In this document: in pieces, positions 19,925 to 21,840 of the stretch | Numbering within the stretch: the first letter of the stretch is position 1 | How the letters are laid out: every line of letters begins with the position of its first letter | Origin: an uncultured Pseudomonadota bacterium | GTDB lineage: Bacteria; Pseudomonadota; Gammaproteobacteria; Xanthomonadales; Wenzhouxiangellaceae | NCBI GenBank assembly: GCA_937138395.1 | Contig: CAKZPB010000125.1 | Coordinates: forward strand, 1-63,578 | DNA: 63,578 bases | Direction: 5' to 3' | The notes under the pieces: generated by a model | What the model saw: only the letters and a program-made list of their open reading frames with translations | Told to the model about the DNA's origin: nothing | Databases searched by the model: none | Position numbers and translations under genes: made by a program

Positions 19925-20845
19925 TCATGATTTCGTGCGGTTGCGTCCGGCTTCCTTGGCCTCATACAATTTCTTGTCGGCGCGCCCAACCAGTTCCAGC
20001 GTTGATTCAGTAGTATCCCACTGTGCCACGCCGCAGCTGATTGTGATGTCGTCCAGGTTATCGATGGTTTCGGCCTGGACGGCGTTTCGAATGGACTCGG
20101 CAACATAGATCGCCCCTTCCGGCCCGGTCGACCAGAGCGCGCAAACAAATTCTTCGCCGCCCCAGCGAATGGCCAGATCATTACCGCGAGTTCGGCCATC
20201 GATAATATGCGCAACTCGCCGGAGCACGCGGTCGCCGGTCAGGTGGCCATGCTGGTCGTTCACCGATTTGAAATGGTCAATATCCAGCACGATGCAGCTG
20301 ACGTCCTGATACTCCTCTTTTGCGCGAACGAGCATCTGATTCATGTCTTCCTCGCCAGCACCCCGGGTCAAAAGACGTGTCAGGTAATCCATTTCCGCTT
20401 TACGCTTCATGCGCTGCAACAGCTTGACTTCATCCGTGACGTCGCGCTGAAGCGCCATGTAGTGCGTTACGCTGCCGTTCTCATCAACTACCGGGCAGGT
20501 GCGCCACTGCATGTAGAACGGCGAGCCATCCTTGCGATAATTAACTGCGTGGGCTTCATAACTTTCCCCGGCTTGCAGTGCGGTTTTCAAGGCACTGGTC
20601 ACCTTTCGATCCGTGCGCTCACCCTGCAACATCTTCGGCGAGCGGCCCAGTAATTCCTCCATATCGTATCCCGTCATTCGGCAAAAGGCCGGGTTGACGT
20701 AAAGAATCATGGGATCATCCAGATTCGCATCAGTGATAACAATCGATTCGTAGCACGAATCCATGACGGTACGAAACAGCGAATCGGAAAAATCACTGAG
20801 GCGATCTAGCTGACTTAAAGCAGTAGCTGATTGGACGTCAGACAT
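19925..20845 (-). CDS. PAS-GGDEF diguanylate cyclase
   Basis: Makes the second messenger cyclic di-GMP from GTP. With the start at 20845 (GAGGGGAG ribosome site) it has 306 residues: a PAS domain (about 20-140) and a GGDEF domain (about 150-305). The active-site motif G-G-E-E-F (229-233) is intact, and R-G-N-D (220-223) is a correctly spaced inhibitory I-site, so product feedback is expected. The PAS domain resembles LOV domains (G-R-S-P-K-M-L-Q-G in the place of G-R-N-C-R-F-L-Q), but lacks the photoactive Cys. No membrane helix. An FNR box lies upstream, suggesting oxygen control. Confidence 0.93.
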   Translation of the reverse strand: MSDVQSATALSQLDRLSDFSDSLFRTVMDSCYESIVITDANLDDPMILYVNPAFCRMTGYDMEELLGRSPKMLQGERTDRKVTSALKTALQAGESYEAHAVNYRKDGSPFYMQWRTCPVVDENGSVTHYMALQRDVTDEVKLLQRMKRKAEMDYLTRLLTRGAGEEDMNQMLVRAKEEYQDVSCIVLDIDHFKSVNDQHGHLTGDRVLRRVAHIIDGRTRGNDLAIRWGGEEFVCALWSTGPEGAIYVAESIRNAVQAETIDNLDDITISCGVAQWDTTESTLELVGRADKKLYEAKEAGRNRTKS

Positions 20846-20899
20846 GAGGCTCCCCTCAACAAAAGTCGTCCAAAATACCACCTAAATCCGGCCGCCTAC

Positions 20900-20913
20900 T
20901 TGATTTGAATCAA
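20900..20913 (-). promoter_or_regulatory. FNR/Anr box at -41.5 of a predicted promoter for the GGDEF gene
   Basis: TTGATTTGAATCAA matches TTGAT-N4-ATCAA exactly, and the flanks extend it to a 9-bp inverted repeat (20897-20916). Reading the minus strand, TATTTT at 20877-20872 is a plausible -10 element; it predicts a transcription start at 20865, which centres the box at -41.5, the class II activator position. The coding start follows 20 bases later. Confidence 0.72.
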
Positions 20914-21126
20914 GTAACCGGACCTTGTGCCCAACAAAATGGTGTGATCAATGGTGATGTTCGGGCTCTGTATGACCTTTGGCGGATGCGCAGAGAATCA
21001 AAATGGTTACTGTGGTTGTAATACGACCTCAGGCACATCTCGACTTGACGGATAATGAGTCTGTTGAAGTACCAGTTTTTGACTTTGCCACATTGGCTTA
21101 TTGCATTGGTCTAGGATGTTTCAGCT

Positions 21127-21840
21127 ATGAATTTCCCTAAAAAAACCGCCCTGCCTGGCCTGAGCCAGCCATTTGATCACCACGGCGTGGCCTTCAACAT
21201 GGTCAAGGCCTTTGGACCCACGCTGCTTGAGACCCGGCTGCCGGAGGACATCTTCAGCAAGATGCTGCAGATGACCGATGACCTGCTGGAGGACCCAAAC
21301 CGCAAATCCTACGGGGACAGCCTGGTCGGTCAGATTCGCGAAGAACCTGAAATCACGCTGGATCTGCTCAAACAATACGGCGTGTATGACTACATTCATG
21401 GCCTGTTTGCCGAATACATTCTCGGCTGCTCCTACTGCGATGCAGATCCCGAATACAAGCAATCCGTGACCGCATTTCAACAAAGCGCGGACTACGTCAA
21501 CCCGGTCAACGTCAAGATCGAGGCTGCCTGGCTGGTCAGTCAATATCAGGGCGAGTACAACCCCATTCATAACCATTCCAGCTCGACGCTGTCGAGCGTG
21601 ATGTACCTGAAGGTGCCTGAGACCATGAATGAGGATCCCATCCCGGGCAAGGCCCGTTTGGATGGCCATATCGAGTGGGTCGACCGCTCGACCGACGTCA
21701 TGCAGAATTCAACGCTGCGCGTAAAACCCGAAGCCGGCCGCTTCTATATTTTTCCGGCCACTCTGCTCCACCTGGTCTACCCGTTCAAAGGCAGCGAGGA
21801 ACGACGTAGCATATCCATCAACGCCACGCATCAACTGTGA
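21127..21840 (+). CDS. Putative 2-oxoglutarate/Fe(II) oxygenase
   Basis: 237 residues that fit the 2OG-FeII_Oxy_5-type group (TIGR02466-like). The metal ligands are probably His148 and/or His150 in Y-N-P-I-H-N-H-S-S-S and His215 in A-T-L-L-H-L-V-Y-P-F, with Arg226/227 in E-E-R-R-S-I-S-I-N as the 2-oxoglutarate ligand. The family pattern P-E-A-G-R-F-Y-I-F-P is present. Substrate unknown. No signal peptide. It stands alone between a divergent cyclase and a convergent DUF2805 gene, 9 bp from the latter's end. Confidence 0.82.
   Translation: MNFPKKTALPGLSQPFDHHGVAFNMVKAFGPTLLETRLPEDIFSKMLQMTDDLLEDPNRKSYGDSLVGQIREEPEITLDLLKQYGVYDYIHGLFAEYILGCSYCDADPEYKQSVTAFQQSADYVNPVNVKIEAAWLVSQYQGEYNPIHNHSSSTLSSVMYLKVPETMNEDPIPGKARLDGHIEWVDRSTDVMQNSTLRVKPEAGRFYIFPATLLHLVYPFKGSEERRSISINATHQL

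Follow-up and report, generated by a model that had tools for sequence, protein, structure and literature searches.

A candidate FNR-activated promoter in front of a PAS-GGDEF gene in a relative of Wenzhouxiangella

Does oxygen control the synthesis of cyclic di-GMP in an uncultured gammaproteobacterium from the family Wenzhouxiangellaceae? The question is raised by a palindrome located in front of a putative diguanylate cyclase gene, within a stretch of 63,578 nucleotides (the window) from a genome that belongs to the same family as Wenzhouxiangella but to another genus. The original prediction had read the palindrome as a perfect FNR box situated exactly at −41.5 of the predicted promoter of this gene, and had concluded that low oxygen is linked to cyclic di-GMP in this organism. 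The features of the locus, in window coordinates, are the following.

19925..20845, minus strand: diguanylate cyclase gene (PAS and GGDEF domains), 306 amino acids with stop codon
20746-20432, minus strand: PAS domain, amino acids 34-138, part of the diguanylate cyclase gene
20398-19937, minus strand: GGDEF domain, amino acids 150-303, motif GGEEF, part of the diguanylate cyclase gene
20850..20856, minus strand: ribosome-binding-type sequence AGGGGAG, upstream of the ATG at 20845
20865..20866, minus strand: predicted transcription start, A 20866 or C 20865, which would centre the box at −40.5 or −41.5
20872..20877, minus strand: −10-like hexamer TATTTT, with 4/6 matches to TATAAT and separated from the box by exactly 22 nt
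20900..20913, minus strand: FNR box TTGAT-N4-ATCAA with palindromic half-sites, reading TTGATTCAAATCAA towards the diguanylate cyclase gene
21127..21840, plus strand: putative 2OG-Fe(II) oxygenase (PF13759), 237 amino acids, a divergent neighbour outside the proposed switch

The two DNA elements are indeed present where the prediction had placed them. The box, TTGATTTGAATCAA at 20900-20913, agrees with TTGAT-N4-ATCAA at 10 of 10 positions and is the only perfect one in the window, and TATTTT is found at 20877-20872 on the minus strand. That this hexamer agrees with TATAAT at 4/6 positions counts against a promoter here. The figure of −41.5 survives in part. It hangs on the assumption that transcription begins at 20865, where the transcript strand has a C, and the box centre would move to −40.5 if the first nucleotide were the A at 20866 instead; the quantity that can be measured is the 22-nt gap between the box and TATTTT, and this is a class II spacing. 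In E. coli, FNR is positioned at −41.5 ± 4 in 19 of the 23 promoters that it activates directly and whose start is known (PMC3688515). No sigma-70 −35/−10 hexamer pair was found across positions 20780-21180. The leader of the predicted transcript would be about 20 nt long and would include AGGGGAG, which stands in front of the ATG at 20845; the alternative start codon, a GTG at 20881, would give a protein of 318 amino acids.

Judged by its domains, the downstream gene does appear to encode a diguanylate cyclase as had been claimed: a PAS domain is followed by a GGDEF domain that scores 126.1 bits with PF00990 (cut-off 23.8) and carries the GG(D/E)EF motif in the form GGEEF. Many of the best solved relatives of the PAS domain are of the LOV type. 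An identity as LOV photoreceptor was considered and rejected: when 8c05, a sensor domain-containing diguanylate cyclase, is aligned to the PAS domain, its NCRFLQ stands opposite SPKMLQ, which places a proline at the position of the cysteine that we take to be the photo-adduct cysteine of LOV photoreceptors. Since this photo-active cysteine is missing, an adduct-type control by blue light is unlikely, and the PAS domain may possibly receive another ligand or a redox input.

The reading that survives best next to a functional promoter is that the palindrome is a functionless chance match. When the window was shuffled 300 times by dinucleotides, 29 of the products held at least one perfect box, the mean being 0.10 boxes per shuffle. 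The 2.84 Mb of the own genome hold 10 perfect boxes and there is no genome-wide excess, the 156 half-site pairs found over the 15 spacings from 0 to 14 amounting to 10.4 for each spacing. Because spacing 4 is not in excess, a perfect match by itself proves little. Five of the 10 perfect boxes lie inside genes, a point in favour of chance; the other five are intergenic, with one each in front of hemN, of a gene for cysteine synthase, of the puf operon and of two GGDEF genes, among them the diguanylate cyclase gene of the window. This intergenic share compares with 8 of 38 sites with other spacings, these controls being the sites within the retrieved stretches, counted once per matched sequence, with two of the eight overlapping at one place and another overlapping a gene end. 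The higher share is suggestive, a pointer that does not decide the matter. As a separate observation, sites with at most one mismatch to the FNR box number 13 in the window, compared to a mean of 2.57 and a maximum of 8 in 100 shuffles.

The homologues of the diguanylate cyclase gene also speak for a chance match. Upstream of seven of them with 35-49% identity (L006-L012) no FNR box was detected, the best site within 420 nt of the match reaching 7/10, and considering other ORF starts and a wider search produced at best 8/10, at one locus (L047). Five of the seven constitute fair tests, since L007 offered about 134 nt of upstream sequence and the stretch examined at L010 fell within the longer reading frame of L010 itself. 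A search of 60 relatives gave no close orthologue, the best match having 49% identity, and neither did wider genome contigs, where the best full-length match had 39% (among 80 of the 247 confirmed places, in a search that may leave out records near the own genome).

What argues against chance is the arrangement of the site rather than the palindrome. In 20,000 shuffles of the 281-nt intergenic region, a perfect box arose in 20 and a relaxed box (TTGAY-N4-RTCAA) in 56, while the relaxed box followed after 22 nt by TAnnnT arose in 2. When the background of TAnnnT was assessed in 70 orientations of 35 relaxed sites, a gap of 22 was seen four times. Two of these cases, the diguanylate cyclase gene and hemN, come from the intergenic set, and the other two, which lie on contig C93, from the sites called coding.

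The gene hemN is a classic FNR/Anr target, and we used it as a reference for working FNR sites in the family of the host. The set comprised the best 30 matches over 61 genomes (L211-L240), from the own genome and 29 relatives. TTGAY-N4-RTCAA is present upstream of hemN at all 30 loci, and TAnnnT follows exactly 22 nt after the box at 29 of them; the exception, L240, has its hexamer at 25 nt, and the box at L238, about 520 nt upstream of the hemN match, is perhaps that of a different gene. The site in front of the diguanylate cyclase gene matches this grammar exactly: box, 22-nt gap and TAnnnT are alike, although the hemN promoters are kept across relatives whereas the diguanylate cyclase site was seen in one genome. 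That the layout coincides with the one at 29 of 30 hemN loci, in addition to its rarity in shuffled intergenic regions, makes a functionless match unlikely.

The same grammar occurs in 42 of 43 genomes of the family, compared to 2 for a control with the reversed pattern. In the own genome it is found at four places, i.e. at hemN, in front of the diguanylate cyclase gene and at two sites on contig C93:

C93:15936, minus strand: grammar site facing bchG, with 239 nt between the hexamer and the start of the bchG ORF
C93:38043, minus strand: grammar site directed towards an ORF that resembles light-harvesting beta (56.3 bits, cut-off 61)

Each of the C93 sites overlaps a plus-strand ORF that may or may not be real, and both had been classed as lying inside these ORFs. 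For a survey with hemN left out, 60 regions were taken from the 150 matches listed, mostly of 9-10/10, which together with the window made 63 hits; 58 of the 63 lie outside ORF interiors. Downstream ORFs were called as the longest ORFs, a procedure that may cut long proteins. Among the matches listed, a GGDEF motif was present downstream of one of the 44 hits for which such an ORF was called, and this was the window's own. A recurrent wiring of FNR to GGDEF genes within the family was thus discarded for these 44 sampled hits. Since the homologues are without the box, no close orthologue was found and a single GGDEF gene appears among the 44 hits, the box of the diguanylate cyclase gene seems, within the genomes covered, to be specific to its lineage. 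Six proteins encoded downstream of grammar sites in relatives were compared with profiles: the cut-off was exceeded by ccoN and a hydrogenase maturation protease and was missed by two proteins that resemble OmpW and NapC, while the remaining two matched nothing. Genes for ccoN, hydrogenase maturation, OmpW-like and NapC-like proteins are of the kind that is found in FNR regulons. If the proposed reading is true, a box followed after 22 nt by TAnnnT could be used as a family grammar to predict FNR-activated promoters in relatives of Wenzhouxiangella.

Alternatively, the target of the box might be the divergent oxygenase gene: an enzyme that needs oxygen might, for instance, be kept off in this way, whether or not the diguanylate cyclase is affected as well. 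It is located in the 281-nt region shared by the two genes, a palindrome works either way, and on the oxygenase side CAAAAT, which has 4/6 matches to TATAAT and is without the leading TA, occurs 21 nt from the box. On the other hand, that side offers no TAnnnT between 8 and 37 nt from the box, the oxygenase gene starts 213 nt away, and the closest homologue of the oxygenase (G031, 55% identity) has neither an upstream box nor an adjacent diguanylate cyclase gene. We consider this explanation very unlikely.

A promoter activated by Fnr further presupposes an Fnr protein, and the own genome encodes one. With the profile HTH_Crp_2, three proteins exceeded the cut-off and a fourth matched weakly. 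The protein encoded on contig C28 (L036:394-1149, also L001) scores 263.7 bits with the NCBIfam Fnr model (cut-off 228), and its gene adjoins hemN. Aligned with an FNR of solved structure, it matches at the three N-terminal cysteines of CRDCSLLDLC, at a fourth, later cysteine and at the ET(V/I)SR helix; we assume that the four cysteines hold the iron-sulfur cluster and that ETVSR represents the FNR-type recognition helix, so that the genome appears to possess an Fnr with four cluster cysteines and the appropriate helix. The Crp-family proteins L002 and L003 differ at the cysteine and helix positions, which presumably counts against an FNR-type function. That another CRP/FNR-family protein uses the site, L002 and L003 being also over the Pfam cut-off, or that Fnr represses instead of activating, is highly improbable, as CxxCx5C and the ETVSR helix occur together in L001/L036 alone and hemN conserves just this distance of 22 nt.

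The presence of Fnr in the genome, the hemN grammar kept in relatives and the rarity of the complete layout together give good support to a class II FNR box ahead of the diguanylate cyclase gene. We would put the probability that the PAS-GGDEF gene is preceded by an FNR-activated class II promoter at roughly three in four. At low oxygen, Fnr would keep its iron-sulfur cluster, dimerise and bind the box, and from its position at about −41.5 it would touch the RNA polymerase placed by TATTTT. Such a class II activation should result in more transcription of the PAS-GGDEF gene at low oxygen, and there would be more diguanylate cyclase alongside the products of haem and photosynthesis genes that have the same box layout. 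Binding, the direction of the effect, the start site, enzyme activity and a rise in cyclic di-GMP are what we infer from the sequence, and the link between low oxygen and cyclic di-GMP can reasonably be drawn on this basis.

FNR-type control of genes for cyclic di-GMP metabolism has already been published. The nearest example in terms of promoter architecture is yfgF of E. coli and Salmonella, which encodes a cyclic di-GMP phosphodiesterase and has an FNR box at −41.5, with TTGAT--ATCAA and a −10 element arranged as in the window (PMC3718329). It differs in that YfgF, from another lineage, is a phosphodiesterase with a MASE1 domain, a degenerate GGDEF and an active EAL domain, whereas the window gene encodes a PAS-GGDEF protein with GGEEF; the predicted effect on cyclic di-GMP is therefore opposite. 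The diguanylate cyclase gene cfcR of P. putida is reported to be positively modulated by the FNR homologue ANR, and in this respect resembles our case, but it encodes a GGDEF/EAL response regulator and is wholly dependent on RpoS (PMC6849547). In R. capsulatus, genes of cyclic di-GMP signalling are reported among the 42 direct targets of FnrL, although transcripts for the traits under study are said not to have changed greatly when fnrL was lost (PMC7232146). FnrL of D. shibae activates pufQBALMC and bch genes (PMC5398030). Both regulons are alike in that they tie an FNR-type regulator to photosynthesis genes, and in R. capsulatus also to cyclic di-GMP genes; they are, however, those of Alphaproteobacteria, while the host is a gammaproteobacterium with an E. 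coli-type Fnr and is known here from sequence. The accessible text of a paper on P. stutzeri Anr mentions neither GGDEF nor diguanylate (PMC12459779), and a table in the available part of an RNA-seq study of Shigella FNR lists one predicted diguanylate cyclase, yfeA (PMC4229854). No paper joining Wenzhouxiangella and cyclic di-GMP was found in the literature searched. The principle is thus known elsewhere, and what would be new is this example in a relative of Wenzhouxiangella with genes for the use of light.

These latter genes were found on contig C93 (L040, L283, L284), with matches to pufB, pufL, bchC, bchG and bchP, and the host is probably an anoxygenic phototroph. Seven of the 43 family genomes have pufL, and in 5 of the 7, the own genome included, an FNR box is situated at a similar distance from it. 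The box in front of puf in the own genome is perfect and is followed after 22 nt by TATTAA; in 4 of the 5 boxed loci the hexamer at 22 nt, read by eye, is TATTAA, TACAAA, TATATA or TATAAA. As none of the five loci fits TAnnnT, puf was not counted among the four grammar places. A study on sulfide oxidisers, MAGs of Wenzhouxiangellaceae among them, reports that (bacterio-)chlorophyll synthesis was encoded by all of them apart from two exceptions, which it names (PMC13384644), implying that bacteriochlorophyll genes in members of the family are already in print.

It is tempting to propose, very tentatively and with more doubt than confidence, that Fnr runs one low-oxygen programme in which the building of the photosystem (puf, light-harvesting beta, the bchG side and hemN) would be coupled to cyclic di-GMP synthesis via the PAS-GGDEF protein, and possibly also via a membrane-bound GGDEF protein encoded on contig C79. 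The cell might in this way settle where oxygen suits phototrophy, with the cysteine-less LOV-like PAS domain adding a second, perhaps redox, input. If the FNR-activated promoter itself is real, the cases in which oxygen controls a diguanylate cyclase would gain one from the Gammaproteobacteria, and the same FNR promoter grammar would be common to the diguanylate cyclase, haem and photosynthesis genes.

GGDEF domains over the cut-off number 16 in the own genome, the diguanylate cyclase of the window being one of them. The upstream DNA of 14 of the 16 genes (186-300 nt) contains two perfect boxes and one of 9/10. The second GGDEF gene with a perfect box is the following.

C79:68638-69936 (L039): GGDEF gene, 355 amino acids, motif GGEEF, hydrophobic N-terminal segments by sequence

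Its box is separated by 221 nt from the downstream position taken as ORF start, and AATAAT occurs 21 nt beyond the box. The position of this box is not kept in 11 homologues, in which the best sites are 9/10 at −24 and 8/10 at −198 and −36. At another GGDEF gene (L361; contig C106, GGDEF at 107828-108292), a 9/10 FNR-like site, TTGATCTCGAGCAA, is located at −178. Finally, without a clean −10 element at 22 nt, a perfect box at C121:3078-3091 (L043) lies about 54 nt upstream of cysK, the cysteine synthase gene.
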